37,532 bases of DNA from an uncultured beta proteobacterium. GTDB lineage: Bacteria; Pseudomonadota; Gammaproteobacteria; Burkholderiales; SG8-41. The notes below the pieces were generated by a model. It was not told where the DNA came from and did not search any database. It saw only the letters and a program-made list of their open reading frames with translations. Where the stretch lies: contig CAIVHG010000091.1 of the NCBI GenBank assembly GCA_903905655.1, positions 1-37,532 of the forward strand. Direction: 5' to 3'. Below, piece after piece: positions 10,790 through 30,725 of the stretch (positions are counted from its first letter, which is position 1; each line of letters begins with the position of its first letter). The translations under genes and the position numbers were made by a program.

Positions 10790-11344
10790 ATGAAAATCGC
10801 ACAGGAAATCCGTGCCGGAAACGTCATTATGGTGGGCAACGACCCCATGGTGGTGCAGAAGGCGGACTTTTCGAAGTCCGGACGCAATGCGTCCGTAGTC
10901 AAGATGAAGATGCGCAACCTGCTGACCGGGACGCCGACCGAGAGCGTCTTTCGCGCGGACGACAAGTTCGACATGGTCATGCTCGAGCGCAAGGAAGTGA
11001 CTTACTCGTACTACGCCGACCCCATGTACGTGTTCATGGACGAAGAGTACAACCAGCACGAGATCGAGAAAGACAACATGGGCGAGGCGCTCAACTATCT
11101 CGAAGAAGGCATGGCGTGCGAGGTCGTGTTCTATAACGAAAAAGCGATTTCAGTCGAGATTCCTCAGTCCCTGGAGCGCGAGATCGAGTACACGGAGCCG
11201 GCGATCCGCGGCGACACTTCAGGCAAGGTCCTGAAGCCCGCCAAGCTGAAGACGGGATTCATCGTGCAGGTGCCGCTGTTCTGCGCCACCGGCGACAAAA
11301 TTGAGATCGACACCCGTACCGGCGAATACCGCCGCCGCGTTTAG
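10790..11344 (+). CDS. efp: Elongation factor P (arginine-type)
   Basis: EF-P enters the ribosomal E site and promotes peptide-bond formation at proline stretches. The 184-residue product has the three-domain EF-P length. The modification loop reads FSKSGRNAS with arginine at position 32, the target of EarP rhamnosylation, instead of the lysine of EpmAB-type EF-Ps. The C-terminal domain contains LPQ-like [19 protein letters not shown] and ends with the typical [11 protein letters not shown]. An AGGAA lies ahead of the ATG. The modifying enzyme gene is immediately upstream. Confidence 0.98.
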
Positions 11345-11372
11345 CTTTTAACCTGAATGCCGCGGCTGCCGT

Positions 11373-13355
11373 TCAGCAGCAGCGGTTGAACAGGCCCGGG
11401 TTTCCAGTCGTGAAGATCTGATTGCCAGGAGCCGCAGCCTCAGTTGACTGCGGCTCTGCGGTGTCGCTCCAGTCGATTTTCTCGAATTGCGGGCGCAGCT
11501 CGGCGCGTTTCGCAGCAGTCGCCGCGCGGTCCGCGACTTCGCTACCCTGCTGGAACACGATTCCGTAGCAGCCTTCCGCGCGCTCCCGCGAAATGTAGCC
11601 TTCGCGCAGGTCCGACTCGACCTGCTCGATCGGACGGTCGAGTGGAGAACCGTAGCCGCCGCCGCCGCCCGAGCGCAGGATGTAGGCTTCACCGGCATTG
11701 AGCTGGCGCGCCAGCACTTTGCCGCTCGGAAAGTGCTGGTCGGTTTGGTCGCCTGCCAGCCGTACGGCGACCTGGTTGCCCGCTCCCGGGTGGCCACCGA
11801 ACAGTCCCCACGGCCGGCAGTGCACGCGCTCGATCTGCACGTTGAACATGAATTCGCTCACCGCGCGCACTACCTTCTCGACGCCGAGTCCGCCCTGCCA
11901 GGTGCCCGCTCCACCCGAGTCCTCGCGCAGCGCATAGCGCTCGACCAGCATCGGGTACTTGACCTCGATCTGCTCGACGGGGCTGTTGTGCGTGTCGCCG
12001 TCGTTGATGCAGATGGTCGCGCTCGAACCGTCCTGGCCCTGGGTCGCGCCCCAGCCGCCGCCGATCAGTCCGCCTGAGACCAGGAAGATCCTGCCGCTGC
12101 CGGGCATGCGCCCGTTGATCATGCACGACATCAGGTCTGCATGGTGCGCGGCGATGACGCGGTCCGGAATTGCATTCGCGAGCGCCTTGAAGATGGTGTC
12201 GACGATGGTCATCGGAAAGGTCATCCACCAGCGCATCGGCGAAGGCCGCACCGCGCTCACCACGCGCCCGGGAGGAAGAATGATCTTGAGCGGACGAAAG
12301 CTGCCGTCGTTGATCGGTTTCTCCAGAGGGGAGGTCAGGCACTTGAACGCAACCTGGCAACAGGCGCGGCCGGTGGCTTCGCCCGAGTTATAGAATCCTT
12401 TCACCTGCTTCGATACGTCAGTTAGATCGATGGTCATCTCGTCGCCCTTGACGATCACCTTGACCTTGATCGGTATGCGCTCGCCCTTGTCGATGCCGTC
12501 GTCATCCATGAAGGACTCGGCTTCATAGACGCCGTCCGGAATGCTCAGGACCTGTTCGCGCGCGATCGCCTCGGTGTGATCCATGATGGCCGCCACCCCG
12601 TTGAGCACCGCATCGCGCCCGTAGCGTTCGATCAACTCGAGGAAGCAGCGCGCGCCCAGCCGCGTCGCCGCGACCTGGGCGTTGAAATCTCCCATCGCGC
12701 GATCCGGCAGCCGCACGTTCATGCGGATCACCGCGATGATGTCCTCATTGGGCTTGCCGCGCTGGTAGATCTTGACGATCGGCACCTGCAGGCCTTCGGA
12801 GTAGATGTCCTTGGTCATGCCATCGAGCGATCCGCCGATGTCCTGCCAGTGCGCCATGCAGGCGGAGAAGCCGACCAGCTTCTTCTCGTTGAAGATCGGC
12901 ACCGCAAACGTCAGGTGATTGAGGTGGCTGCCGGTGGTGTAGGCATCGTTGGTGAGCAGCACGTCTCCCGGCTCTATGTTGTCCGCGCCGAAGTGATCGA
13001 GCATCGCTTTCACGGTCTGGCTCATGCCGCGCACGAACATCGGCAGCCCGATGCCGATCGAGATGATCGCGCTCTGCGCATCGAACAGGCCCACCGTGAA
13101 GTCCTGCGCCTCATAGATGATCATGTTGCAGGCGGTGCGCATCAGGTTGGACTTCATCTGCTCGGTGATGGCAACCAGGCCGTTGCGGATGATTTCGGTG
13201 GTGACCGGATCGACCCTGACCGCTTTCTTGATGCGTTTCTTTGCCGCGCTCGCGCGCTGCTTGGCCGGCAGAGTTTTCTTTGCCGACATTGTTCCCCTCG
13301 CCGGCATGACTCTTTTCGCCGGCACGGCTTTCTTTGCTTTCTTCTTGGTCGGCAT
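11373..13355 (-). CDS. Hydantoinase B/oxoprolinase family protein with Lys/Ala-rich N-terminal extension
   Basis: The HyuB-type subunit of ATP-dependent amidohydrolases or carboxylases (N-methylhydantoinase, 5-oxoprolinase, acetone/acetophenone carboxylase, caprolactamase relatives), 660 residues. The domain begins at about residue 48 (VDPVTTEIIRNGLVAITEQM) and shows LLTNDAYTTGSHLNH, FVRGMSQT and the C-terminal glycine-rich RSGGGGGYGSPLDRP. The first 47 residues are unusual: repeated KKAKKA/PAKR/SAKK/PAKQ blocks resembling histone H1-like tails. The gene starts three bases after the hyuA stop codon, so the two are coupled and form the expected A/B complex. The chemistry cannot be told from the sequence. 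Confidence 0.92.
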   Translation of the reverse strand: MPTKKKAKKAVPAKRVMPARGTMSAKKTLPAKQRASAAKKRIKKAVRVDPVTTEIIRNGLVAITEQMKSNLMRTACNMIIYEAQDFTVGLFDAQSAIISIGIGLPMFVRGMSQTVKAMLDHFGADNIEPGDVLLTNDAYTTGSHLNHLTFAVPIFNEKKLVGFSACMAHWQDIGGSLDGMTKDIYSEGLQVPIVKIYQRGKPNEDIIAVIRMNVRLPDRAMGDFNAQVAATRLGARCFLELIERYGRDAVLNGVAAIMDHTEAIAREQVLSIPDGVYEAESFMDDDGIDKGERIPIKVKVIVKGDEMTIDLTDVSKQVKGFYNSGEATGRACCQVAFKCLTSPLEKPINDGSFRPLKIILPPGRVVSAVRPSPMRWWMTFPMTIVDTIFKALANAIPDRVIAAHHADLMSCMINGRMPGSGRIFLVSGGLIGGGWGATQGQDGSSATICINDGDTHNSPVEQIEVKYPMLVERYALREDSGGAGTWQGGLGVEKVVRAVSEFMFNVQIERVHCRPWGLFGGHPGAGNQVAVRLAGDQTDQHFPSGKVLARQLNAGEAYILRSGGGGGYGSPLDRPIEQVESDLREGYISRERAEGCYGIVFQQGSEVADRAATAAKRAELRPQFEKIDWSDTAEPQSTEAAAPGNQIFTTGNPGLFNRCC

Positions 13356-13358
13356 GGT

Positions 13359-15428
13359 TTATCTCCGGTCTATCTTGATGATCAGGTCGCCGTAAGTCCC
13401 GACTTCCAACTGGTCTCCGGGGAATACGACGGTGGTCGATGCATGCTCCTCGACCAACGCGGGACCGGTGGTCTTGAATCCCGCCGGCAGGTCCGGGCGC
13501 TGGTAGACCGGCGTGTTGACGAATCCGGCCTTCTCCGCGAAGTACACCTTGCGTCTATACACCGGCACTTTTTTGGCGGAGCGTTTGAGGCGGGCGGGCG
13601 CGGGCTTGGACAGGTGGCCCACGACCGAACTGTGCAGGCTGACGATCTCGGCCGGCTCCTGAGAATTGAATCCATACCGGAGCGCATGCACGGCGTCGAA
13701 CTGCTTCTTGATGCCCGCGCGGTCGTGCTTGGCGAAGAGCTTCATCGGCAGCTGCACGGTCACCGAATGCTCCTGGCCCGCGTAACGCAGGTCCGCAGCG
13801 CGGGTGACGATCAACTGGCCGCGGCCTTCGACGTCGCGTTCCAGCGCCTGCCGGCCCTCGGCTTCCAGGACCTTGTAGATTTCTTCCATCTCTTCGAAGC
13901 TGACCGTGTCCAGAGGATTGAACCAGGTGCGCACCGTGTCGCGGCGCAGGTCGGCCACCAGCATGCCGTAGGCGGAGAAGTGCCCGGGCGCCGGCGGTAT
14001 GATCACGGTCGGTATGCGCAGCTCGCGTGCCACCAGGCCGGCGTGCAGCGGGCCCGCGCCGCCATAGGCGACCATCGAGAAATCACCGGCGTCCAGGCCG
14101 CGCTCGGTGGTGACACGCGTCACCACGTTGGACATGGTAGTGGCGCCGATCAGGATGATGCCGTTGGCAGCTTCCAGCAGGTCGATGCCGAGCGGCTCCG
14201 CGATCTTGGTACTCAGAGCGTGCTGCGCAGCCTTCAGATCGAGCTTCATCTCGCCGCCCAGGAAGCGATCCGGCGCGAGCCGCCCGAGGATCAGGTTGGC
14301 ATCGGTGACGGTGGGCTCGGTGCCGCCGAGCCCGTAGCACACCGGTCCCGGGGAGGCGCCGGCGCTCTGCGGCCCCACCCGCAATCCGCCTCCGGTCTCG
14401 ATGCGCGCGATGCTGCCGCCGCCGGTGCCGACTTCCTGGATGTCGATCAGCGGAATCTGGATTGGCAAACCTTCGGCATAACCGCCGATCATGATATTGC
14501 CAGCCATGATTACTTCGCCGTTCAGCACCACGCCGGCCTTGGCAGTGGTGCCGCCCATGTCGAACGCGATGGCATCGGAAAGGCCGAGGCGTTTGCACAC
14601 CGAGTTGGCGCCGATCACACCGGCGGCCGGCCCCGATTCGAGCATCCTGATGCACTCGGTCTGCGCGTGCGCGACGTCGAACAGGCCGCCGCTCGACTGC
14701 ACGACCAGGAAGGTTCCCGGAAACTTCTCCTTCGCCAGCCGCGCGTCCACTTCTTGCAGGTAGGAGCGCACGCGCGGCCCGATGTAGGCATTGGCGGCGA
14801 CGGTCGAGGTGCGCTCGAATTCGCGGTATTCCTGAGACAGCTCATGCGAAGCCGTGACGAACATGCCGGGGCACTGCGCCTCGATGATGCGCTTGGCCCT
14901 GAGTTCGTGGTCGGGGTTCGAGTACGAGTGCAGAAACAGTATCGCCACGGCTTCGACCTTCATCGCCGTGAGCTGTTTCGCAATCGCGATCAGTTCCTGT
15001 TCGTCGAGTGGGATCAGCACTTCGCCGTGGGAATTCAGGCGCTCGGTGACCTCGATGCGCATTGCGCGCGGCACCAGCGGCCGGTGCTTGCGGAAGGACA
15101 GGTTGTACGCTTCGGGGCGGTTGATGCGCCCGATCTCGTAGACGTCGCGGAATCCCTTGGTGGTGAGCAGCGCAGTGTGGGCGCCGGTGCGCTCGATGAT
15201 GGTGTTGATGCCGATGGTGGTGCCATGCAGAAAGAGCCGTGTCTGATCAATCCGGGTGCCGGCCTTGTGCACACCGTTGATGATGCCGTCGACCAGATGT
15301 TCCGGGGTGGTCAGCGTCTTGCCGAAAGAGGATGCGCCGGTGACCTCATCGAAGGTTACGACATCGGTGAAGGTGCCGCCGACGTCGGTGGCCACTCTGC
15401 TGCGCGGCTTGTCGCTTGCTGACTGCAT
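13359..15428 (-). CDS. Hydantoinase A/oxoprolinase family protein (ATP-binding subunit)
   Basis: The HyuA-type subunit, 689 residues, an ASKHA-fold ATPase that phosphorylates the substrate in ATP-dependent hydantoin, oxoproline or ketone conversions. The phosphate-binding motifs are DVGGTFTDVV near residue 16 and AFDMGGTTAKAGV in the middle of the protein. The substrate-side motif LFLHGTTIGINTIIER and the loop LESGPAAGVIGA are typical. The C-terminal part has a basic linker (LKRSAKKVPVYRRKVYF). An AGGAGC ribosome-binding site precedes the ATG. It follows the double acyl-CoA dehydrogenase gene by 84 bases on the same strand. Possible roles are N-methylhydantoinase, lactamase or ketone carboxylase. 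Confidence 0.93.
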   Translation of the reverse strand: MQSASDKPRSRVATDVGGTFTDVVTFDEVTGASSFGKTLTTPEHLVDGIINGVHKAGTRIDQTRLFLHGTTIGINTIIERTGAHTALLTTKGFRDVYEIGRINRPEAYNLSFRKHRPLVPRAMRIEVTERLNSHGEVLIPLDEQELIAIAKQLTAMKVEAVAILFLHSYSNPDHELRAKRIIEAQCPGMFVTASHELSQEYREFERTSTVAANAYIGPRVRSYLQEVDARLAKEKFPGTFLVVQSSGGLFDVAHAQTECIRMLESGPAAGVIGANSVCKRLGLSDAIAFDMGGTTAKAGVVLNGEVIMAGNIMIGGYAEGLPIQIPLIDIQEVGTGGGSIARIETGGGLRVGPQSAGASPGPVCYGLGGTEPTVTDANLILGRLAPDRFLGGEMKLDLKAAQHALSTKIAEPLGIDLLEAANGIILIGATTMSNVVTRVTTERGLDAGDFSMVAYGGAGPLHAGLVARELRIPTVIIPPAPGHFSAYGMLVADLRRDTVRTWFNPLDTVSFEEMEEIYKVLEAEGRQALERDVEGRGQLIVTRAADLRYAGQEHSVTVQLPMKLFAKHDRAGIKKQFDAVHALRYGFNSQEPAEIVSLHSSVVGHLSKPAPARLKRSAKKVPVYRRKVYFAEKAGFVNTPVYQRPDLPAGFKTTGPALVEEHASTTVVFPGDQLEVGTYGDLIIKIDRR

Positions 15429-15512
15429 GGCTTACTGCTCCTGTATTGATCTGTTGACCGGCGTGCTGTCAATCCGATTGATGTTAGCCTGAAACCCGCA
15501 TCGCACTCAAGC

Positions 15513-17834
15513 TCATGGACGCGGAAAGCGCAGCACCGCCGCGGCGATGATGTTGCGCTGAATCTCGTTGGTCCCAGAATAGATCGTGGTGAGCATCGCA
15601 TTCATCAGCGGCGCCACGGCATTCACCACGAAGCCGGCGCTCGCCACCGCATGATCGCCGCCGTGCTCGGCGGCACTCTCATTGAGCAGCGCGCAGATGC
15701 GGCTGTAGGTCTCGGTGGCCCAGATCTTGAGCAGCGAAACGCTCGCCGGCAACTCTGTGCCGCGCTTGACGATGTCCGCGAAATGACCGTAGGCAGCGCT
15801 GAGATCCGCTACGTCGAGCTGTAGTTCGGCGTAGCGCGCCGCGAAGGCTGCATCCTCATAGAGCTTCAGCGTTCGTGCCAGGGTGTCGAGCTGCGCCAGC
15901 GCGTACTGGCAGGTCTTGGGACTGCCGACGAAGATGCGCTCGAATCCGAGCAGCGACTTGGCAATCGCCCAGCCGCGGTTGATGTCACCCACCAAGTTTG
16001 AGGCTGGCACGCGCACCGCGTCGAAAAACACTTCGCAGAACTCGGTGTCGCCCGCCATGTTGGGAATCGGGCGCACCTTCACGCCGGGCGACTTGATGTC
16101 CACCAATAGCAGGCTGATGCCTTCCTGCTTCTTGGCTGCCGGGTCGGTGCGCACCAGCACGTAGATGTGCGTCGCATCGTGGGCGAGCGTGGTCCAGATC
16201 TTTTGCCCGGTCACGACGAACTCGTCGCCCTCGCGCACTGCCGCCGTGCGCAGCGAGGCGAGGTCGGAGCCGGCATTGGGTTCCGAATAGCCCTGGCACC
16301 AGATGTGCTCTCCGGAAAGTATTTTCGGCAGATAGCGCGCGCGCTGCTCGGGCGTGCCGTAGCGGATCAGCACCGGGCCGATCATCAGCATGCCCTGATC
16401 GGGCATGCGTGCCACGCCGTACTGCTCGAACTCCTCAATGAATGCCAGCAGTTTCGCTGGAGGCAGCTCCATGCCGCCGTGGGCTTTGGGCCACGCCGGC
16501 ACCAGCCATCCCTGGCGCGACAGCGTCATGTACCACTCACGCAGCTCGTGCCACCGGAGCCGGCGCGCTGGAAAGCGCAGATCGTCGGGATAGTGCTTTC
16601 TTAGGAAGGAGCGCACGATGGCGCGGAATTGCGATTCCGGCATTGCCGCCCAGTCCGCGGTGCGCGGTATGTCCACCTGCTCGTCTGCGCTTGCTTCGGC
16701 ATCGGTGAGTCTGGGGCTAAGCTCAAAGTAGCGTGCACGGTGAGCCGTCGCGTTTCCCAGCCAGCTCGATAGCTGCAGCGCGCGCTTGGCATAGAGTCCG
16801 ATGTCGCATTCGTCGGTGATGCCGATCGCGCCATGAAACTGGATGGCGAGCCGAGTCACGAAGGCCGCGGCGTGTGCGCAGCGCGCCTTGACGCGGCTGG
16901 CGAGCGCAGCGAGCGCGCCGGCGTCCGCTTCATAGGCCTGCAGCGCATCGTTGAGGCAGGCGCTCGCGAGCTGCACCTGGATGTAAGCATCGACCATGCG
17001 GTGCTGCAACGCCTGGTTGGCTGCGATCGGGCGCCCGAACTGCACGCGCACGTTCATATAAGCGAATGTGAGGTCGAAGGCATGGCGCGCGAGGCCGAGC
17101 AGCTCCGCGCCTTGCGCAAACTGCGTGATCGCGAGCGCCTGCGCAAGCGCACTGAGCGTCGCTGCCCCCGACATCAGGCGCTGGCTCTCCGGCACCACCA
17201 CGTCGAACTGCAGCTCTGCCATGTACGAGCCGTCGACGCGGGCGCTGTCCACCACGCGCACGCCCTGAGTATCCGCGCGCACCCAATACAGCGCCGCTCC
17301 CTGAGATTCGCTCGCCGCGACCAGCCAGCCGTCGGCGCCGCTGCCTGGCGCGACCCAGCGCTTGCAGCCGGTGATGCGCACGCCGGCATCGCAGCGCGTG
17401 GCGACGGTCGCGAAAGCAGCGGGCGCCAGCTGCGCCAGCTGCTCCTGCCACGCGAGCCCGATGAGCGTTTCGCCGCTTATGAGCTTGGCGCTGAGCTCGG
17501 CCTTGAGCGGGCTCGCAGGCGCGCACGCAAGCGCAGCTGCCGGCAGCACCGCACCCGCCAGATAGGGTTCTGAGAGAGGATTGCGGCCGATCTCTTCGGC
17601 GATCGTGCAGGCGACGCGCAGGCCGAGCCCGAGGCCGCCATCCGCTTCCGGCACCAGGGCGCCGGTCCAGCCGGCCTCTGCGATATCCTTCCACATGCCA
17701 CGCTCGAATCCGGGCGCGGCAGCGCGCAGGCTGCGCAGGCGCGCGAGCGGCGCCCGCGCGCGCAGGAAATCGCGCACGCTATCGGCAAATGCCGCGCTCG
17801 AATCTTCAGGGTCTGCAAGCTCTGTGGCCGCCAT
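15513..17834 (-). CDS. Double-domain acyl-CoA dehydrogenase (fused ACAD)
   Basis: A 773-residue protein made of two acyl-CoA dehydrogenase units. The N-terminal unit, residues 1-375, is divergent (GWTGALVPEADGGLGLG, VRVQFGRPIAANQALQH). The C-terminal unit, from about residue 390, has the FAD/substrate motifs CQGYSEPNAGSDLASLRT and GQKIWTTLAHDATH. Near the end, the segment that carries the catalytic Glu in medium-chain enzymes (YEGT) reads IYSGTNEIQRN, with S753 in its place, so any base must come from elsewhere. The layout recalls mycobacterial FadE34 and the FadE28-FadE29 type heteromers used on bulky ring-bearing acyl-CoAs. It is divergent from the LysR gene and precedes hyuA. Confidence 0.92.
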   Translation of the reverse strand: MAATELADPEDSSAAFADSVRDFLRARAPLARLRSLRAAAPGFERGMWKDIAEAGWTGALVPEADGGLGLGLRVACTIAEEIGRNPLSEPYLAGAVLPAAALACAPASPLKAELSAKLISGETLIGLAWQEQLAQLAPAAFATVATRCDAGVRITGCKRWVAPGSGADGWLVAASESQGAALYWVRADTQGVRVVDSARVDGSYMAELQFDVVVPESQRLMSGAATLSALAQALAITQFAQGAELLGLARHAFDLTFAYMNVRVQFGRPIAANQALQHRMVDAYIQVQLASACLNDALQAYEADAGALAALASRVKARCAHAAAFVTRLAIQFHGAIGITDECDIGLYAKRALQLSSWLGNATAHRARYFELSPRLTDAEASADEQVDIPRTADWAAMPESQFRAIVRSFLRKHYPDDLRFPARRLRWHELREWYMTLSRQGWLVPAWPKAHGGMELPPAKLLAFIEEFEQYGVARMPDQGMLMIGPVLIRYGTPEQRARYLPKILSGEHIWCQGYSEPNAGSDLASLRTAAVREGDEFVVTGQKIWTTLAHDATHIYVLVRTDPAAKKQEGISLLLVDIKSPGVKVRPIPNMAGDTEFCEVFFDAVRVPASNLVGDINRGWAIAKSLLGFERIFVGSPKTCQYALAQLDTLARTLKLYEDAAFAARYAELQLDVADLSAAYGHFADIVKRGTELPASVSLLKIWATETYSRICALLNESAAEHGGDHAVASAGFVVNAVAPLMNAMLTTIYSGTNEIQRNIIAAAVLRFPRP

Positions 17835-17890
17835 CTCGCGAGTCCGCCGTGTGATTACTGGGGGTAGGAAGCGCCTAGCAGTCTAAGGTG

Positions 17891-17941
17891 CCGGACTCAA
17901 CCGGACTAGCCATGAGGCCCACAAAGCAGATATGCTTATCT
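17891..17941. promoter_or_regulatory. Candidate LysR binding region in the divergent ACAD/LysR gap
   Basis: The 111-base gap between the two divergent starts contains a direct repeat CCGGACT-CAA-CCGGACT (17891-17907). It also contains an inverted repeat AGATA-TGCT-TATCT (17928-17941) just before the LysR start. LysR proteins commonly bind between their own gene and a divergent target, so these are reasonable operator candidates. No consensus has been demonstrated. Confidence 0.35.
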
Positions 17942-17945
17942 AGGC

Positions 17946-18863
17946 ATGTCAAACGAACGCACCAGGAAGTGGGATCTGACGAAGCTCGAGCTCTTCGCGG
18001 CGGTGGCTGAGCTCGGCAGTCTGACCAAGGTGGCTGCCGCGCGCAGCGCGCGGCAGCCGGTGATCAGCCGTCAGATCGCGGCGCTGGAACGCGAATGCGG
18101 CGGGCATTTGTTCGCGCGCACCGGCCGCGGGATGGCGCTTACGGAATTGGGCGAGCGGCTGCTCCCGCGCATCCAGGCAACATTGGCGGAGGCGCGGCTG
18201 CTGTCTGAGGAAGTGGGCGCCGCCGGCGGGCGCGCCGTCGGCCATGTGCGCATCGGGGCGCTGCCCTCGCTCTACAAGCTGATTATCTGCCCGCTTTTCT
18301 ACGCGATGCTGGAACGCTTTCCCAAGGTGCAGCTGCACGTTTCCGAGGGCTCGGGCGGCCAGATCGACCAGTGGCTCGCGAACGGCACCATCGACATCGG
18401 TCTCACGTACCGTTTCGGCGCGAATCTGCCGAGTGATGCGCTGCAGTTGATCGCCGACGATTCCTACCTGATCGGGCCGGTCGGAGACCGGCTCACTGCA
18501 TCGGCCACAGTGGATTTCGTGCAGCTCGCCGGCAAGCCGCTGGTGCTCTCCGGCGCTCCGGGGATGGTGCGCACCATGCTCGATCAGCTCGCCAAGCGCA
18601 AGAAGATCGCGCTCAATATCGTGCTGGCGGCCGATTCGCTGCAGATACAGAAGGAAGTCGTGCTCAACGGGCACGGCTACACCATCCTGCCGCGCCACGC
18701 GGTGTCTACGGAAATCGAGTCTGGCACGCTACAGGCGGCGCGTATCGTCAACCCCGTCATCAAGCGTAGGGTTGCCCTGGTCACGACCTCGGTGCGGCCG
18801 CTGTCGCTGGCCGCGCGGGAGGTGGCGAAGTTGATCCGGCAGCTGGGGCAGGTTAAGAGCTAG
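17946..18863 (+). CDS. LysR-family transcriptional regulator
   Basis: A 305-residue regulator. The N-terminal winged helix-turn-helix covers residues 10-70 (LELFAAVAELGSLTKVAAARS, QPVISRQIAALERECGGHLFAR). It is followed by the linker helix and a two-lobed periplasmic-binding-like effector domain from about residue 95 (VRIGALPSLYKLIICPLFYAML). It is transcribed divergently from the double ACAD-hyuAB set and in the same direction as the CoA-transferase series, so it is the natural candidate regulator of both. The effector is probably a CoA thioester or free acid of the pathway. No Shine-Dalgarno is visible before the ATG. Confidence 0.94.
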   Translation: MSNERTRKWDLTKLELFAAVAELGSLTKVAAARSARQPVISRQIAALERECGGHLFARTGRGMALTELGERLLPRIQATLAEARLLSEEVGAAGGRAVGHVRIGALPSLYKLIICPLFYAMLERFPKVQLHVSEGSGGQIDQWLANGTIDIGLTYRFGANLPSDALQLIADDSYLIGPVGDRLTASATVDFVQLAGKPLVLSGAPGMVRTMLDQLAKRKKIALNIVLAADSLQIQKEVVLNGHGYTILPRHAVSTEIESGTLQAARIVNPVIKRRVALVTTSVRPLSLAAREVAKLIRQLGQVKS

Positions 18864-19028
18864 GATTCCCCGTCTCGATATTGCACGCCAGACATAGCTG
18901 CTTTGTCAGCTCGCGGACTGTCGCACGCTCTGCGAGGACGCTAGACTTGCACACGCCCGAAAGGATGTACTCGGAAAGCCGCTTCCGTTTCGGCAGTCTG
19001 AAATTTTCGATTTACTCAGGGAGCACGC

Positions 19029-20249
19029 TTGGCCGGACCGCTTTCTCATATCAAGGTGCTGGATCTCAGCCGCGTGCTCGCCGGCCCCTGGTCGTGCCAG
19101 ATACTTGCCGATCTGGGTGCCGAAGTGATCAAGGTCGAGCGCCCGGGCGCGGGTGACGATGCGCGCGCCTGGGGGCCGCCGTTCCTCAAGGACACCAACG
19201 GCGCCTATACCAAGGAGTCGGGCTATTTCCTCGCCGCCAACCGCGGCAAGCGCTCGATCACGCTCAATCTCGAGCTGCCCGAAGGGCAGGAGATCGTGCG
19301 CCAGCTGGCAGCGCGCTCTGATATCGTGGTTGAGAACTTCAAGGTCGGCACCATCGAGCGTTTCGGCCTCGGCTATGAGGCCTTAAGCGCCATCAATCCG
19401 CGGCTGATCTACTGCTCGATCACCGGGTTCGGCCAGAACGGACCCAAGAAATCACAGCCGGCTTATGATTTTCTGATTCAGGCGATGGGCGGCATGATGA
19501 GTATCACCGGGGAGCGCGACGATCATCCGGGCGGCGGGCCGCAGAAGGTCGGCATTCCCATCATTGATCTCATCACCGGTGTCTATGCTTCCGTTGCGGT
19601 GCTGGCGGCGCTCGCGGGGCGCGAAGTGTCGGGCAAGGGCGAGCGCATCGACATCGGCATGCTCGATGTGCAGGTGGGGCTGCTCGCCAACCAGGCGATG
19701 AACTACCTGGTCGCGGGCCGCACGCCCAAGCGCACCGGAAACGCGCATCCCAACATCCAGCCGCAGCAGGTGTTCGTGTGCAAGGACGGCGATATCGTGG
19801 TGGTGGTTGGCAACGACGGCCAGTTTCAGAAGTTGTGCGCACTGCTCGGCCGGCCGGATCTCGCAGCAGACGAGCGCTTCGCAACCAATGCCGAGCGCGT
19901 CAGGCACCAGGAGATACTGTTGCCGCAGATCGAGGCGGCATTTGCACGCGAGACGCGCAGCCATTGGGTCGAGCACCTGACGGAGGTGGGGGTGCCGTGC
20001 GGCCCGATCAACTCCATACCCGAAGTGTTCGCCGATCCACAGGTCCAGGCGCGCGAGATGCTGCGCTATCTGCCGCACCCCACGGCCGGCGTGGTGCCGC
20101 AGGTGATGAGCCCGTTCAAGTTTACCAATGCACGCCTCGAGATTGAGACGCCGCCGCCGCTCTTGGGTCAGCACACCGACGAGGTGCTGCACGAGCTCGG
20201 CATCGACGATGCGCGGATCTCAGAGTTGCGGGGGCGCGCAATTGTTTAA
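19029..20249 (+). CDS. Class III CoA-transferase (CaiB/BaiF family) 1
   Basis: A 406-residue CaiB/BaiF/formyl-CoA transferase family enzyme that moves CoA from a thioester donor to a carboxylic acid through aspartyl intermediates. It shows the family opening LSHIKVLDLSRVLAGPWSCQILADLGAEVIKVE, ANRGKRSITLNL, and the active aspartate D180 in GIPIIDLITG. The C-terminal part has GVPCGPINSIPEVFADPQVQAR. The TTG start at 19029 is supported by an AGGGAG seven bases upstream and by the standard N-terminus. It is the first enzyme after LysR on the plus strand (165-base gap) and precedes a paralogue. Donor and acceptor are unknown. Confidence 0.92.
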   Translation: MAGPLSHIKVLDLSRVLAGPWSCQILADLGAEVIKVERPGAGDDARAWGPPFLKDTNGAYTKESGYFLAANRGKRSITLNLELPEGQEIVRQLAARSDIVVENFKVGTIERFGLGYEALSAINPRLIYCSITGFGQNGPKKSQPAYDFLIQAMGGMMSITGERDDHPGGGPQKVGIPIIDLITGVYASVAVLAALAGREVSGKGERIDIGMLDVQVGLLANQAMNYLVAGRTPKRTGNAHPNIQPQQVFVCKDGDIVVVVGNDGQFQKLCALLGRPDLAADERFATNAERVRHQEILLPQIEAAFARETRSHWVEHLTEVGVPCGPINSIPEVFADPQVQAREMLRYLPHPTAGVVPQVMSPFKFTNARLEIETPPPLLGQHTDEVLHELGIDDARISELRGRAIV

Positions 20250-20338: not shown

Positions 20339-21571
20339 ATGCAGCCATCTGAAGATGGGATGAAGGCCGCTTTGGCAGGCGTCAAGATACTTGACCTCGC
20401 GCAGTTCGAAGCCGGCACCTCGTGCACGGAAACGCTGGCCTGGCTGGGCGCCGACGTCATCAAGGTGGAAGAGCCTACGCTCGGCGACCAGGGGCGCGGC
20501 GCTTCGACCGATCAGAAGGGCGTCGACTCCCACTACTTCATGCTGCTCAATGCCAACAAGCGCAGCGTCACCTGCAATCTCAAGCACGAGCAGGGCCGCG
20601 CGATGTTTCGCGGCCTGCTGGAGAAGGCGGACGTCGTCATCGAGAACTATGCGCTGGGGGTGATTGAGCGGCTGGGTTTCGGCTGGGAGGAGATCCACAA
20701 GATCAATCCGCGCATCATCTTCGCGCAGATCAAGGGCTTTGCGCCGGACGGTCCGTACGCCAAGTATCTGAGCTTCGACAACATCGCGCAGGCGGTGGGT
20801 GGGGGCCTGAGCATCACCGGCGAGCCGGACGGACGGCCCATGCGGCCGGGCATGACGATCGGCGACACCGGCACCGGGCTGCATTGCGCGCTCGGCATCC
20901 TGGCCGCGCTCTATCAGCGCAAGGTGACCGGCCGCGGCCAGCGCATCGAAGTGGCGATGCAGGACGCGGTCATCAATTTCTCGCGCATCGCCTATGCCGC
21001 CCAGGCGCTCACTGGCAAGGCTGCTCCGCGTGTCGGCAATCAGAGTATCCTCGGGACGAGCTCGCCGAGCGAGTGCTATCGCTGCAAGGGCGACGGTCCG
21101 AACGATTACTGCTATGTATACACGACGCGCGCCGGCAACCATCACTGGGAGCGATTGCTGAAAGTCATCGGCCGCGAGGATCTGCTGGCCGATGCGCGCT
21201 TTGCCACGCCCGAAATGCGCTGGCAACATCGGCAGGATGTTGATCAATTGATCAGCGCCTGGACTGCACAGCGCGACAAAGTCGAGGTCATGACCTTGTT
21301 GGGCGAGGCGGGGGTGCCGGCGGGCGCGGTGCTCGACACCAACGAGCTGCTGAACGACCCGCACCTCAGGAAGCGCGGCATGTTTGTGACCGTGAAGCAT
21401 CCGGTGCGCGGGGACTTTACGATGCCCGGCTTCCCGGTGAAGATGTCGGGGTCGAGCGTGCCGGTGACCGCATCTCCGCTGCTCGGCGAGCACAACACAG
21501 AGATCTACGGCGCATGGCTGGGCGCGACGCCGGAGCGGCTGGCGGAGCTGCGCAAGGATAAGGCAATCTGA
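20339..21571 (+). CDS. Class III CoA-transferase (CaiB/BaiF family) 2
   Basis: A 410-residue paralogue of the preceding enzyme. It has ILDLAQFEAGTSCTETLAWLGADVIKVEEP, NANKRSVTCNLKHEQGR, and the active aspartate D176 in IGDTGTGLH, a context very close to formyl-CoA:oxalate CoA-transferase. The C-terminal part has GVPAGAVLDTNELLNDPHLRKRGM. A clear AAGGAG precedes the ATG at 20339. It sits directly before a ThDP enzyme of the oxalyl-CoA decarboxylase superfamily, the arrangement frc-oxc, although the substrate need not be oxalate. Its stop codon lies within an imperfect tandem repeat. Confidence 0.93.
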   Translation: MQPSEDGMKAALAGVKILDLAQFEAGTSCTETLAWLGADVIKVEEPTLGDQGRGASTDQKGVDSHYFMLLNANKRSVTCNLKHEQGRAMFRGLLEKADVVIENYALGVIERLGFGWEEIHKINPRIIFAQIKGFAPDGPYAKYLSFDNIAQAVGGGLSITGEPDGRPMRPGMTIGDTGTGLHCALGILAALYQRKVTGRGQRIEVAMQDAVINFSRIAYAAQALTGKAAPRVGNQSILGTSSPSECYRCKGDGPNDYCYVYTTRAGNHHWERLLKVIGREDLLADARFATPEMRWQHRQDVDQLISAWTAQRDKVEVMTLLGEAGVPAGAVLDTNELLNDPHLRKRGMFVTVKHPVRGDFTMPGFPVKMSGSSVPVTASPLLGEHNTEIYGAWLGATPERLAELRKDKAI

Positions 21572-21679: not shown

Positions 21680-23320
21680 ATGGCACAGGTGAACGGTTCG
21701 CAGATACTGGCTCGGGCCCTGAGGACCCACGGCGTGGACACCATGTTCTACATCATGGGCGGTCCCATGCTGGCCGCCGAGACCGCCTGCATAAACGAGG
21801 GCATACGCGCGATCGACGTGCGGCACGAGCAGGCCGCGGTGATGATGGCGCACGCGTGGGGCCGGCTGCTCAACCGCGTGGGCGTGTGCATGGCGGCGTC
21901 CGGTCCCGGGACCACCAATCTCGTGACCGGCGTGGTCAATGCCTGGGCCGACTGCGCGCCGTTGCTTGCGATCGGCGGTTCCGCGCCGGCGTCCACTGCC
22001 GGGCGCGGCCAGTTCCAGGAGATGGACCAGGTCGGCTTGTTCAAGCCGATCACCAAATGGGCGGAGCGTGTGCTGGATCCGCGGCGCGTACCGGAGATGG
22101 TTGCGACCGCGATGCGCCAGGCGGTGAGCGGGCGGCCCGGCCCGGTGTATCTGGACATGCCGGGCGATGTGCTCTATCAGGCGGTCGACGAGGCGCAGGT
22201 GGTCTATCCCGATGCTCTGCGCTCGCAGGCGCGTGTGCGGCCCGCCGGAAGTCCGGCGGCGGTGGCAGAGGCGATCGCGCTGTTAGAGCGCGCCGAGAAG
22301 CCGATTGTGATGAGCGGCAGCGGCATTATCTGGTCGCAGGCGTGGGACGAGCTGCGGCGTTTCGTGGAACTCGCGGGCATCCCCTTCTACACCACGCCGC
22401 AGGGCCGCGGCGTCATACCGGACGACCACGAGCTGAGCTTCTTGGCGGCGCGCTCCGCGGCATTCAGCGAGGCCGACCTGCTGCTGGTGGTGGGCACGCG
22501 CTCCAATTACATCAACGGTCATCTGACGGCGCCGCGCTTTCGCGCCGACGCCAAGGTGATCCAGGTAAATATCGAGCCCACCGACATCGGCGTGACGCGC
22601 GCCTGCGACTGCGCCATCGTCGGCGACGCGAAGACGGTGCTCGAGCAAATGTGCGCGGAAGCCAAGGGCCGCCTGAACCGCAAGCGTTACGCGGGCTGGG
22701 TGGAGTATTTGGGCGGGCTCAACAAACCGAAGATGGCCAAGGCCGAGGTGCAGATGAGCACCGTCCAGGTGCCGATCCATCCGCTGCGCCTGTGCAAAGA
22801 AATTCGCGACTTCCTCGATCGTGACGCGATCCTGGTGGTCGACGGCCAGGACATCCTGAACTACGGGCGCCAGTCTATTCCGACCTTTATGCCTGCACAT
22901 CGACTCAACTCCGGACCCTTCGGTACCATGGGCGTGGGCCTGCCCTTCGGCATCGGCGCCAAGGTCGCGTGTCCGGACAAACAGGTGCTGGTGCTGCACG
23001 GTGACGGCTCATTTGGGCTGAACGCGATGGAACTCGACACTGCGCTGCGCTTCAACATACCGGTGGTCACGGTGATCAGCTTGAACGGTGGCTGGACCGG
23101 CGATGCCAAGCGCGAGAAGCCGGGGCGTGAACTCGGCTACACGCGCTTCGACAAGATGGCCGCGGGCCTGGGTTGCCATGCCGAGTTCGTGGAAGATCCG
23201 GCGCAGATTCGTCCGGCGCTGGAGCGCGCATTCAAATCGGGTCTGCCCGCGGTGGTGAACGTGAAGACGGATTACCGGGCGCAAGCCACCACCGGCTCGT
23301 TTGCGATGTATACGACCTAA
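21680..23320 (+). CDS. ThDP-dependent enzyme, oxalyl-CoA decarboxylase/2-hydroxyacyl-CoA lyase/acetolactate synthase superfamily
   Basis: A 546-residue thiamine-diphosphate enzyme. The catalytic glutamate that activates the cofactor is E50 in VRHEQAAVMMA. It is followed by ASGPGTTNLVTGVVNAWADCAPLLAIGG, and the diphosphate/Mg motif runs from GDGS at 441-444 to N469 in SLNGGW. Next to two class III CoA-transferases, a carbon-carbon lyase or decarboxylase acting on an acyl-CoA is the most likely role. At the site equivalent to the oxalyl-CoA decarboxylase YEE triplet this protein reads FQE, as in hydroxyacyl-CoA lyases and acetolactate synthases, so true oxalyl-CoA decarboxylase is less likely. 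A GGAG precedes the start. Confidence 0.88.
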   Translation: MAQVNGSQILARALRTHGVDTMFYIMGGPMLAAETACINEGIRAIDVRHEQAAVMMAHAWGRLLNRVGVCMAASGPGTTNLVTGVVNAWADCAPLLAIGGSAPASTAGRGQFQEMDQVGLFKPITKWAERVLDPRRVPEMVATAMRQAVSGRPGPVYLDMPGDVLYQAVDEAQVVYPDALRSQARVRPAGSPAAVAEAIALLERAEKPIVMSGSGIIWSQAWDELRRFVELAGIPFYTTPQGRGVIPDDHELSFLAARSAAFSEADLLLVVGTRSNYINGHLTAPRFRADAKVIQVNIEPTDIGVTRACDCAIVGDAKTVLEQMCAEAKGRLNRKRYAGWVEYLGGLNKPKMAKAEVQMSTVQVPIHPLRLCKEIRDFLDRDAILVVDGQDILNYGRQSIPTFMPAHRLNSGPFGTMGVGLPFGIGAKVACPDKQVLVLHGDGSFGLNAMELDTALRFNIPVVTVISLNGGWTGDAKREKPGRELGYTRFDKMAAGLGCHAEFVEDPAQIRPALERAFKSGLPAVVNVKTDYRAQATTGSFAMYTT

Positions 23321-23413: not shown

Positions 23414-24337
23414 GTGGAGCAGAAAGTCGAGTTTTACAGCAAAGGCGTCAAGGTACGTGGAGTGCTGCGCATGCCCGAAGGCAAAGGTCCGCATCCTCTG
23501 CTCGCGATGGCGGGCGGATGGTGTTACGTGAAAGAGATCGTGATGCCCACCTACGCTGAGGAACTCGCGGCGGTCGGCTGCGCCACGCTGCGCTTCGATT
23601 ACCGGTGCCTGGGCGACAGCGACGGCGAGCCGCGCCAGCACCTAGACCCGTGGGCGCAGATCGAGGATTACCGCAACTGCCTGAGTTACGCCGCGGGCCT
23701 GCCCGGCATCGACAAGGACCGTTTGGGCGCGTGGGGCATTTCGTATTCCGGCGGGCATGCGTTGATCCTGGCCGCCATCGATCCGCGCGTGAAGTGCGCG
23801 GTCGCCAACATCCCGGTGATCGACGGCTTCGAATCGATGCGGCTGGTGCACGGCTATGGCAAAGGGCGGCTGGCTTCGTTCTTCAAGCTGCTCGCGGAGG
23901 ACCGCGAGAAGCGCGCGCGCGGCGAAGCAGGGGGCATGATCCCGCACAACTCTTCGGACCCGGACAAGGAAATCTGCACCTGGCCGTTCACCACCTCGTA
24001 CGCGTACTTCTCGAACGCGACCAAGACTTTCGCGCCGAACTATCAGGGCAGGAGCACCATCGAGTCGACCGAGATGCTGTGCCAGTACACGGTCGATCCC
24101 TATCTGAAGCGCATCTACCACACGCCGGTGCAGATGCTGATCGTCGAAGGCGACGAGCACACGCCGTGGGATCTGCAGGTCGACGCCTTCAACCGCATTG
24201 CTTCGGTCCGCAAAGAGCTTGCGGTGATGAGCAAGGGCGCGACGCATATCGGCATGTACGCAAAGCTCGATTTCCAGGTGCGCGCGGCGAAGCGCAACGC
24301 GGAGTTCGTGCGCAAGCATCTGGTAGAGGCGGACTAG
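23414..24337 (+). CDS. Alpha/beta hydrolase (dienelactone hydrolase/S15-esterase-like)
   Basis: A 307-residue alpha/beta-hydrolase. The N-terminal strand pair EFYSKGVKVRGVLRMPEGKGPHPLLAMAGG is followed by DYRCLGDSDGEPR and the nucleophile elbow WGISYSGGHALI. The nucleophile is S110 or S112, since both serines fit the elbow pattern. The acid is probably in VEGDEHTPWD and the histidine in GATHIGMY. The GTG start at 23414 has a strong GAGGAGAT site upstream. It probably hydrolyses a lactone, ester or thioester intermediate or a diketone, since it sits between the ThDP enzyme and the DUF35-thiolase pair. The 93-base leader contains a GCCGGG/CCCGGC hairpin (23370-23389). Confidence 0.86.
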   Translation: MEQKVEFYSKGVKVRGVLRMPEGKGPHPLLAMAGGWCYVKEIVMPTYAEELAAVGCATLRFDYRCLGDSDGEPRQHLDPWAQIEDYRNCLSYAAGLPGIDKDRLGAWGISYSGGHALILAAIDPRVKCAVANIPVIDGFESMRLVHGYGKGRLASFFKLLAEDREKRARGEAGGMIPHNSSDPDKEICTWPFTTSYAYFSNATKTFAPNYQGRSTIESTEMLCQYTVDPYLKRIYHTPVQMLIVEGDEHTPWDLQVDAFNRIASVRKELAVMSKGATHIGMYAKLDFQVRAAKRNAEFVRKHLVEAD

Positions 24338-24339
24338 CG

Positions 24340-24798
24340 ATGGCCGCAGGCGCTATCGCGGCCGGCAAGCGCGTGCCCATACGCGAGGGGCTGCTCGCGG
24401 GCTCACTGCTCGAACTCGATCAGGTGCGGATCGCGGGCTCCAAGTGCACGAGCTGCGGTGAGACTTCTCTGGGCACCATGAGCGTATGCGCGAATTGCGG
24501 ACGCGATACGGTGCGCGCGGTTGCATTGAGCGATCGCGGTGTGCTATGGAGCTACACGGTGGTGCGCCACAAGCCGCCGGGCGATTACCGCGGGCCGGAT
24601 CCCTTTGTGCCCTTCGGGCTCGGGCTGGTGGAACTGCCGGACGGTTTGCGCGTGATGTCGCCGATCGAGTGCAATATCGACGAGTTGAAAATCGGGCTTG
24701 CGCTGCAGTTCAGGCCTTATGTGCGCATGGACGCGGACGGCCGCGAAGTGGTGGCGTTTACATTCGTGCCGGCCGCGAAAGGAGCGGGCCATGTCTGA
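24340..24798 (+). CDS. DUF35 Zn-ribbon/OB-fold protein (thiolase/aldolase partner)
   Basis: A 152-residue DUF35 protein. The rubredoxin-like zinc ribbon uses C36, C39, C50 and C53 (KCTSCGE and VCANCGRD). The OB-fold half follows (GVLWSYTVVRHKPP, PFVPFGLGLVELPDGLRVM). DUF35 proteins bind thiolase-fold enzymes and donate part of the acyl-CoA site, as ChsH2 does for the Ltp2 steroid aldolase and as archaeal HMG-CoA pathway complexes do for acetoacetyl-CoA thiolase. The gene starts two bases after the hydrolase stop and overlaps the thiolase start by eight bases, which strongly supports a complex with that protein. Confidence 0.93.
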   Translation: MAAGAIAAGKRVPIREGLLAGSLLELDQVRIAGSKCTSCGETSLGTMSVCANCGRDTVRAVALSDRGVLWSYTVVRHKPPGDYRGPDPFVPFGLGLVELPDGLRVMSPIECNIDELKIGLALQFRPYVRMDADGREVVAFTFVPAAKGAGHV

Positions 24799-25939
24799 TG
24801 TCGTGATACTCGGAACCGGCATGCATCCCTTCGGCCGCTTTGAAAAAAGCTACGAGGAAATCGGCGCGGTCGCGGCCGCGGCGGCGCTGCGCGATGCGGG
24901 CGTCGAGTGGAAGCAGATCCAGGCTGCTTATCTGTCGCGCATGTATCTGCCGGCGACTTCCGGTGCGCGCATCCTGCGCCGGCTGGGCGCCACCGACATT
25001 TCCATCATCGACATCGAGGCCGCCTGCGCGAGCGGCGGCGCCGCGCTGCGCCAAGCGGTGCTGGCGGTGCGCTCGGGCGAGGTCGATCTGGTGATGGTGC
25101 TGGGCTGCGAGAAGATGCCGCGCGGGTTCATGGACCCGTCGATGATCTACAGCCAGTGGCAGATCGAGCTTGGCATGTCGATGAATCCCGCCTACTGGTC
25201 GATGCGCGCGCAGCGTCACATGCACGACTACGGGACGACCGAGTTGCAGATCGCCAAGGTCGCGTATAAGAATCATAAGATGAGCGTGCACAATCCGTAC
25301 TCGATGTATCGCAAGGAATTCAGCCTGGACGAGATCATGAATTCCCCGTTCGTGTGCGACCCCATCCGCCGCCTCGAGATTTGCGCCCCGGACGACGGGG
25401 CCGCCGCGGTCATCGTGGCTTCCGAGAAGCGCGCGCGCGAACTCGGCGCCAGCGCCAAGGCGATCAACATCGCCTCCTGCTCTCATACCATCGCGCGCTA
25501 TTCGGCGGACTTCCGTTGTCCCGCCGACAGCATGAGCGCGACCGCGAACAATCCCGGACCCACCGAGGTGACGGCGCAGCAGGCGTACGAGCGCGCCGGC
25601 CTGGGCCCGCAGGACATCGATCTCTACGAAGTGCAGGACACCGATGCCTTCTGCGAAATCGAGATCTACGAAGGCCTGGGGCTGTGCGCACTCGGTGAAG
25701 GCGGCCGGCTGATCGACGAAGGCAAAACCGATCTCGGCGGAGCGAGTCCGGTCAACATGAGCGGCGGCCTCATCAGCAAGGGCGAGCCAGTCGGCGCCTC
25801 TCATCTGGCGCAGGTCGTGGAGATCGTCACTCAGCTGCGCGGAGAAGCCGGCCCGCGGCAGGTGGCCGGTGCCAAGGTGGGCCTCGGGCACGTGCTGGGC
25901 GCTGGGGGCAATTGCGCGGTTACCATCCTCACGCGCTAG
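24791..25939 (+). CDS. Thiolase-like/SCP2-type lipid-transfer acetyltransferase or aldolase
   Basis: A 382-residue thiolase-fold protein. The nucleophilic cysteine position is C79 in EAACASGGAALRQA. Classical thiolases carry histidine in a GHP motif; here the segment reads GGLISKGEPVGASHLAQ, with E332 in that place and H338 six residues on. The C-terminal GAGGNCAV lacks the classical CxG motif. These features belong to the non-classical SCP2-thiolase group that pairs with DUF35 proteins, some of which are retro-aldolases. Activity is therefore either thiolytic cleavage of a beta-ketoacyl-CoA or aldol cleavage. The ATG at 24791 overlaps the DUF35 gene. Confidence 0.9.
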   Translation: MSDVVILGTGMHPFGRFEKSYEEIGAVAAAAALRDAGVEWKQIQAAYLSRMYLPATSGARILRRLGATDISIIDIEAACASGGAALRQAVLAVRSGEVDLVMVLGCEKMPRGFMDPSMIYSQWQIELGMSMNPAYWSMRAQRHMHDYGTTELQIAKVAYKNHKMSVHNPYSMYRKEFSLDEIMNSPFVCDPIRRLEICAPDDGAAAVIVASEKRARELGASAKAINIASCSHTIARYSADFRCPADSMSATANNPGPTEVTAQQAYERAGLGPQDIDLYEVQDTDAFCEIEIYEGLGLCALGEGGRLIDEGKTDLGGASPVNMSGGLISKGEPVGASHLAQVVEIVTQLRGEAGPRQVAGAKVGLGHVLGAGGNCAVTILTR

Positions 25940-27092: not shown

Positions 27093-28172
27093 TTATGCCG
27101 GGATCGTTTTCTGAGCAGAGGTGAGGAAAGGCCACAAACCTTTCGCGCCGAGTTGCGCAACGACGCCGCCGATCCACGCCGACCATTCCGCTTCGGAACC
27201 GAATTCATCGCGCCACGACCACAGGCGCCGCGTGCTTCGGTGCAGCGGGTGCTCGTAGGTGAATCCCATCGCCGCATGCACCTGGTGCGCGATACCCGCT
27301 GCGATGCCGGCCGCTTCTCCGATGCGTGTCTTCGCGGCAGCGATTTCAAAACTCGCTTCACCGTTCGCGGCCGCCGCGATCACGGTGTCGGCCGCGGCGC
27401 TCGCCGCCGACAGCTGCGAGGCGAGGATCGCGATCTGATGCTGAATGGATTGAAACTTGCCGATCGTGCGCCCGAATTGCTCGCGCTCCTGCGCATAGCG
27501 CAGCGTCATGTTGAACACGCTCTTCATCGCCCCTGCCATGGCGACAGAGCGGAACAATGCGCCAAGCGCGATCAGGCGCGCTGCCGTCAGGCAGCCGCCG
27601 CCCACGGCGACCGCGTCCTGCGGCAGGCGCAGCGCTTTGAACTGCACGTTATCGCGCGGCTCGTTGGCGTAATTCATTCCCGGTTCGGTGATCGCAGGGC
27701 GCTCCACCACTGCCGTCGCCCACTCGCCATCAACCTGCGTCACGACAACCAGCGCGTGCGCATGCCGCGCCCACGGCACCCGATGCAACGTCCCTGAGAT
27801 CTCCCATTCTTTGCCGCGCCGGGCGAGGCTGAGCTTTTCGCCTTTGAGTACCGGTCCCACCGTCAGCGGTCCGCTGCGCGGTGGCAGTCCGGCCGCCGCC
27901 AGCAGCAGTTCAGCGAGCATGGTTTCAGCAAGCGGCGCCGGCAGGCAGGCGGCGCCCATTTCGCGTATCACCGCCAGCGCATCTCCGGGGTCCGCTCCCG
28001 CGCCGCCGCGCGCTTCGGAGACCGTCGCCTGCGGCAGCCCGGATGCATCGAGTTGCTCCCAAAGCTCCGATTGCCGCGCGCCTTTCTCGGCGCGCGCATG
28101 GACTTCATTCGTGCACAGATCGCCGAACAGGCGTGCTGCGGAATCGACCAGAATTTCTCTCATCGTGCTCAT
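27093..28172 (-). CDS. Acyl-CoA dehydrogenase, degenerate partner subunit
   Basis: A 359-residue ACAD-fold protein. The N-terminal helices (EQLDASGLPQATVSEARGGAGADPGDALAVIREMG) and C-terminal helices (AQEREQFGRTIGKFQSIQHQIA, AGIAHQVHAAMGFTYEHPLHRSTRRLWSWRDEFG) are recognisable. The usual SEP.xGSD flavin motif and the C-terminal xGTxxIQ motif are absent. Such short, divergent ACADs usually form alpha2beta2 heterotetramers with a full ACAD encoded next door. Here the complete partner lies upstream with a five-base gap. This subunit alone is unlikely to be active. Confidence 0.88.
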   Translation of the reverse strand: MSTMREILVDSAARLFGDLCTNEVHARAEKGARQSELWEQLDASGLPQATVSEARGGAGADPGDALAVIREMGAACLPAPLAETMLAELLLAAAGLPPRSGPLTVGPVLKGEKLSLARRGKEWEISGTLHRVPWARHAHALVVVTQVDGEWATAVVERPAITEPGMNYANEPRDNVQFKALRLPQDAVAVGGGCLTAARLIALGALFRSVAMAGAMKSVFNMTLRYAQEREQFGRTIGKFQSIQHQIAILASQLSAASAAADTVIAAAANGEASFEIAAAKTRIGEAAGIAAGIAHQVHAAMGFTYEHPLHRSTRRLWSWRDEFGSEAEWSAWIGGVVAQLGAKGLWPFLTSAQKTIPA

Positions 28173-28177
28173 GATGT

Positions 28178-29335: not shown

Positions 29336-29414
29336 GATCGATCACCATGGTTCAGGATTGTGCAATACGGATGCGCAACTGCAATGTTCAAAGTCAAAGC
29401 GCGCTTGCAACATT

Positions 29415-30557: not shown

Positions 30558-30611
30558 AGTTTTTTCTAGAGTGATGGTGTGAAGAGTCAGAGTATATAGT
30601 GGCTGCATGCT

Positions 30612-30725
30612 CACGATCGTGGGCGATGGCAGTAGCGCGGATTCCGGATCGGGTTAGCGGGGGCGCACTCGAGGTGCGCACCGCGATAGTAGTAGAATGA
30701 TTAACTGGTAGCTTACAGGTCCTGT
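30612..30725. promoter_or_regulatory. Palindrome-rich divergent region between racemase-like and quinone oxidoreductase genes
   Basis: Within the 229-base divergent gap there are a CACGATCGTG palindrome (30612-30621), a GCGCAC-N5-GTGCGC inverted repeat (30663-30679) that overlaps the palindrome GGTGCGCACC (30673-30682), and ACAGG-T-CCTGT (30715-30725). On the minus strand TATACT at 30591-30596 could be the -10 of the racemase-like gene. The set suggests regulator binding for both flanking genes; no regulator is identified. Confidence 0.35.

Follow-up and report, generated by a model that had tools for sequence, protein, structure and literature searches.

Probable local junction of a fused acyl-CoA dehydrogenase and a HyuAB pair with a variant metal site in a betaproteobacterial lineage

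The adjacency of a fused acyl-CoA dehydrogenase (ACAD) gene and a hyuAB gene pair in the genome of an uncultured beta proteobacterium is best explained by two independent catabolic modules having been joined in one lineage, and not by a conserved three-gene operon, a reading to which a probability of roughly 0.65 is given. The window, the whole stretch of 37,532 nucleotides that was analysed, is one contig of a 2.55-Mb metagenome-assembled genome (MAG; 113 contigs, 69.7% complete). The presence of EarP, EF-P and numerous TctC-type binding proteins would fit a member of the Burkholderiales. The first module would consist of a LysR-type regulator and a fused PimDC-type ACAD, and the second of hyuA and hyuB, most likely two ordinary modules joined locally. 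The trio serves as a caution against inferring pathway order from adjacency in a single genome. More notable than the trio, and most worth following, is a variant of the HyuB metal site.

The preliminary description had placed a two-domain ACAD upstream of hyuA-hyuB and divergent from a LysR gene, and this arrangement is borne out by Pfam matches far above chance. The hyuB gene (11373-13355, minus strand) encodes 660 amino acids that match Hydantoinase_B (PF02538, 4e-159). The product of hyuA (13359-15428, minus; 689 aa) matches Hydantoinase_A (PF01968, 1e-92) and Hydant_A_N (PF05378, 4e-51), the fused ACAD (15513-17834, minus; 773 aa) contains two sets of Acyl-CoA_dh domains, and the divergent LysR-type regulator (17946-18863, plus; 305 aa) carries HTH_1 and LysR_substrate. 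The spacing is 3 bp between hyuA and hyuB, 84 bp between ACAD and hyuA, and 111 bp between ACAD and LysR. The 84-bp gap (15429-15512, no strand assigned) is the meeting point of the two modules. A simple scan detected no terminator-like site within it, so read-through is possible, and such a short distance could allow co-transcription; a simple scan of all of 11000-19200 found no sigma-70-like promoter. The CAGGAG motif is hyuA's own ribosome-binding site. Alignment of the divergent promoter region between ACAD and LysR (17835-17945, no strand assigned) with the congener G004 showed that the LysR-proximal part is kept as CTAGCCAT..GG.CCACAAA.CAG.TATGCTTATC. A 948-aa ORF on the plus strand (12576-15422), antisense over hyuAB, was taken as spurious.

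Both parts of the locus have close relatives within the genus, where they occur apart. Close copies of both ACAD and hyuAB are limited to G004 and G009, two of the 14 congeners, with identities to the window proteins of 74% and 77% for ACAD and 80% and 82% for HyuA, respectively. In both genomes the ACAD and hyuAB genes lie on different contigs with different neighbours, all assemblies compared being fragmented MAGs. Blastn synteny and alignment of the upstream regions showed that homology to the G009 hyuA locus stops at 15452 and that to the G009 ACAD locus at 15513, which places the break inside the 84-bp gap. The LysR-ACAD pair is kept in G004 (73%) with hyuAB elsewhere in that genome, and the G009 contig ends before LysR. 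The genes found near hyuAB in these congeners are not the fused ACAD, but orthologues of a CaiB CoA-transferase (CaiB3), an ACAD large and an ACAD small gene at 27093-30614 (minus strand) in the window, together with a zinc/quinone-type dehydrogenase (30787-31761, plus strand), the orthologue of which is the immediate upstream neighbour of hyuA in G009. No fused ACAD adjoining hyuA was found in 55 named loci or the other neighbourhoods read, and further genomes of the 74-member family held no close hyuA orthologue. The gene order LysR-ACAD-hyuAB was seen in the window only, and the trio was rejected as a conserved operon on the differing neighbourhoods in the congeners and at all other hyuA loci examined.

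The two parts are nonetheless distributed together. At identities above approximately 70–80%, cut-offs that were set after the data had been seen, orthologues of ACAD, of HyuA and of ACADlarge are each confined to two of the 14 congeners, the same pair every time; random placement would put ACAD and HyuA in the same congener pair once in 91. When 399 genomes from the order were compared, 14 passed a strict cut-off for each of the two genes, and three did so for both. A two-marker tree of EarP and EF-P did not group G004 and G009 with the window genome, its deeper forks being weak, and G009 sits with G003, G013 and G010. Simple vertical inheritance was rejected as the source of the co-occurrence, as this tree places G009 apart from the window genome. 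The 1-in-91 co-distribution in species that are ungrouped in the tree makes a functional or transfer link plausible, and suggests that a catabolic gene set was jointly inherited or transferred. It is possible that ACAD and hyuAB both belong to this set. The gene for elongation factor P (EF-P) comes after hyuB, and the region beyond it (window 11345 onwards) is not the same in all sub-groups of the genus, which makes this a variable site for the catabolic cluster. An integration hot spot behind the EF-P gene was considered, but the genes downstream vary across the genus and nothing firm emerged.

Elsewhere each part keeps its own company. The recurrent partners of the ACAD are LysR, CaiB and enoyl-CoA hydratase genes; in G206 the fused ACAD lies in a CaiB-enoyl-CoA hydratase-CaiB-ACAD operon (L164), which includes a 64% relative of the type III (CaiB) CoA-transferase (PF02515) encoded at 19029-20249 on the plus strand of the window. 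The recurrent partners of hyuAB are LysR, FAH-family hydrolases and TctC proteins. In Comamonadaceae OTU4NAUVB1 and Microvirga ossetica, pairs with the His-type metal site described below are accompanied by a divergent LysR, a FAH-family hydrolase, TctC-type binding proteins and small proteins; in Streptomyces NBC_01643 the companions are a FAH gene and a small protein. A FAH gene is located within 6 kb of hyuA at 10 of 37 His-type loci and at one of 40 others (Fisher p 0.003, uncorrected for kinship and truncated loci). In the window itself hyuAB has no FAH gene nearby; a single one was found in this incomplete genome, on a different contig. These FAH hydrolase and TctC partners point away from an obligate link between hyuAB and the acyl-CoA step of the window. 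A literature search found no published account of HyuAB together with FAH, ACAD and LysR.

The strongest rival is a true LysR-controlled operon for consecutive steps, in which HyuAB would open a lactam or imide ring, a CaiB transferase would make the CoA thioester and the ACAD would oxidise it, as in anaerobic indoleacetate degradation. It had been proposed from co-orientation beside the divergent LysR gene that the ACAD and HyuAB catalyse sequential steps. The genes are co-oriented across 84 bp with no predicted terminator, their parts are co-distributed in G000, G004 and G009, and LysR co-regulation of ACAD and hyuAB is possible. There is also a precedent for such a pathway. In the iaa operon of Aromatoleum aromaticum a HyuAB-type lactamase is found together with a CoA-transferase and an ACAD, and in indoleacetate degradation the lactamase IaaCE, the CoA-transferase IaaL and the dehydrogenase IaaF serve one pathway (PMC8360864, PMC8453981, PMC5214803; IaaCE in PMC8453981). 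The gene combination in the window is not wholly without precedent, although IaaF, a decarboxylating ACAD that is single-domain and homotetrameric (PMC8360864), differs from the fused ACAD. That difference also tells against the operon, as do the separate locations of ACAD and hyuAB in both congeners and the other partners of hyuAB in other genomes. No iaa-type mutase (iaaGH) or CoA ligase (iaaB) is present among the annotated window genes, which leaves the window short of an iaa-type cluster. The operon is considered unlikely, and the evidence gives no support to a reaction sequence that runs from the ACAD to HyuAB.

The fused ACAD is, judged from its sequence, both subunits of a PimD/PimC-type heteromeric ACAD in one chain. 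Residues 18-368 match NCBIfam pimD_small (4.4e-47) and residues 400-768 match pimC_large (1.5e-81), each below its equivalog cut-off (161 vs 653 bits and 274 vs 624 bits). In the PDB, the two halves match both partners of one heteromeric enzyme, Tcur3481/Tcur3483, as well as the chains of 4x28. Alignment revealed a Glu at the catalytic position in the PimC-like C half only, Glu632 (codon 15939-15941), which we take to be the catalytic base from what is generally known of isovaleryl-CoA-type and heteromeric ACADs. The PimD-like N half has no Glu at this position in the alignment and is predicted to be non-catalytic. The same distribution, with the Glu of the ER helix in the large-type part and not in the small-type part, is seen in the PimC/PimD pimeloyl-CoA dehydrogenase and in the α2β2 steroid ACADs Tcur3481/3483 and ChsE4-ChsE5, the latter a documented α2β2 enzyme (PMC6678751). 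In these systems one subunit corresponds to each half, but the subunits are separate where the window has one chain, and full-length identity is low. A paralogue in the same genome is encoded by two neighbouring genes whose order matches that of the fused halves, and fused and split forms are mixed among database relatives, so the fusion is ordinary.

HyuAB belongs to the hydantoinase/ketone carboxylase family, with one Hydantoinase_A and one Hydantoinase_B subunit. HyuA is the ATP-binding (ASKHA) subunit, and its phosphate-site aspartates D15 and D290 and its adenosine motif GASPGP are intact. The best PDB matches are 7hk5 (N-methylhydantoinase) and 6yra (caprolactamase) for both subunits, the latter through caprolactamase B in the case of HyuB, and additionally 5l9w for HyuA. 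By NCBIfam and PDB comparison, caprolactamase and N-methylhydantoinase are the nearest relatives of known function, well ahead of the carboxylases; the caprolactamase equivalog cut-off of 1000 bits is missed, with scores of 504 and 305. The caprolactamase CapAB of Pseudomonas jessenii shares the two-subunit organisation, the ATP-site aspartates and the GxxPGP motif with HyuAB, whereas N-methylhydantoinase, the top match, is one fused chain of 1288 amino acids. Weidenweber's criteria for the hydantoinase/oxoprolinase branch are two genes only, in the order A then B (PMC5214803), and this is the arrangement in the window, where no γ subunit accompanies them.

An alternative function for HyuAB would be that of an ATP-dependent carboxylase of the acetone or acetophenone carboxylase type, acting on a ketone or an acyl-CoA. 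These enzymes (5svb, 5l9w) share the superfamily and ATP motifs with HyuAB. Lys297 of HyuA aligns with Lys281 of the acetophenone carboxylase α′ subunit ApcA, where caprolactamase has CapA Asp302, and caprolactamase is itself bicarbonate-requiring (PMC8453981, also the source of the residue numbers of the known enzymes). However, this lysine is also present in relatives that have Asn or Asp in the metal site, HyuAB resembles caprolactamase and N-methylhydantoinase far more than it does the carboxylases, and its subunits are shorter and lack γ, α′ or ε partners. A motif scan of small ORFs found no four-Cys γ-subunit gene (acxC or apcB) near hyuAB in the window or at related loci, and the small ORFs upstream of hyuA at deltaproteobacterial and actinobacterial loci showed neither Pfam matches nor CxxC pairs. 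A carboxylase is thus improbable.

Gene content, residues, synteny and the tree are results of the analysis, whereas the metal binding, reactions and substrates of the two-module reading are inferred, and the reactions would proceed as follows. The CaiB CoA-transferase beside the fused ACAD probably makes an acyl-CoA. This would be desaturated in the ACAD C half, where Glu632 would remove the α proton and FAD would accept the hydride; the N half would act as a structural partner subunit. HyuA would use ATP to activate a carbonyl or amide group, and the activated intermediate would pass to the HyuB metal site, most likely for hydrolytic ring opening because the carboxylase γ subunit is missing. 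Both modules may contribute to one broad catabolic gene set and need not be consecutive steps.

That the ACAD/hyuA junction is an assembly artefact is very improbable: only this genome, a single MAG of many contigs, shows the order, but the closest relatives of both sides are in the same genus, there is no break in GC content at the junction, and CaiB3, ACADlarge and the dehydrogenase, the companions of hyuAB in the congeners, lie on the same contig.

The predicted metal site of HyuB departs from those of its characterised relatives. In CapB the metal tetrad is D41-H99-D102-H124, each residue being essential in mutants, with D102A inactive (PMC8453981). When mapped on an alignment with 95 relatives, the HyuB tetrad is D85-H144-H147-H169 (codons 13101-13103, 12924-12926, 12915-12917 and 12849-12851). 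Three of the four ligands are thus in common and the third, Asp102 in the Asp-His-Asp-His site of caprolactamase, is His147 in an Asp-His-His-His site; N-methylhydantoinase has Asp-His-Asp-Gln by alignment. The tetrad is not wholly fixed elsewhere, as the last His is missing in some relatives and is apparently Gln in N-methylhydantoinase. All aligned homologues with at least 51% identity have His at the third position; below 43%, the residue is nearly always Asp or Asn. In a quick tree built without bootstrap, the His-bearing sequences form a single clade (SH-aLRT 100), with Asn-bearing sequences nearest, that spans five phyla: Pseudomonadota, Chloroflexota, Myxococcota, Thermodesulfobacteriota and Actinomycetota. 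HyuB belongs to a branch that is widespread, apparently unstudied and altered at the metal-binding site. A substitution at a position that mutation proved essential in caprolactamase is kept across Pseudomonadota, Actinomycetota, Chloroflexota and deltaproteobacterial groups, and this permits a cheap test of how the family adjusts its metal site for hydrolysis or for carboxylation, and of which compounds the branch breaks down.

It is tentatively proposed, with more doubt than confidence, that the Asp-His-His-His branch may be a separate and unrecognised type within the hydantoinase/ketone-carboxylase family. Such enzymes would rely on another metal or another arrangement of ligands for ATP-driven ring opening or a related reaction in carboxylate catabolism, often beside a FAH hydrolase and in one sub-branch with a CxC small protein, and would have been recruited beside CoA-dependent β-oxidation genes in the window lineage. 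The CxC protein, approximately 110–140 aa long, has an invariant CxC as well as a DFE-like motif. It is encoded downstream of hyuB at L169 (7860-8231), L131, L154, L157, L159, L156, L161 and L170, is fused to a β-propeller at L156, and is a candidate accessory subunit; it is absent near hyuAB in the window. Another small protein (115–143 aa, with an H-R-C-G/S-like tail) precedes hyuA at the deltaproteobacterial and actinobacterial loci L044, L045, L047, L048, L069 and L171, and had no Pfam match in the four scanned. At L048, L046 and L047 a single hyuA is accompanied by two hyuB genes, which suggests alternative β subunits.

Two further gene pairs in the window deserve mention. A formyl-CoA-transferase-like CaiB gene (20339-21571) adjoins a gene for a thiamine-diphosphate enzyme (21680-23320), closest to oxalyl-CoA decarboxylase/2-hydroxyacyl-CoA lyase and below the curated family cut-offs. 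At 23605-25939, a ChsH2-type OB-fold domain protein is encoded beside an SCP2/Ltp2/BbsB-like thiolase, a pair that by analogy with steroid or benzylsuccinate degradation could form a retro-aldolase or thiolase complex.
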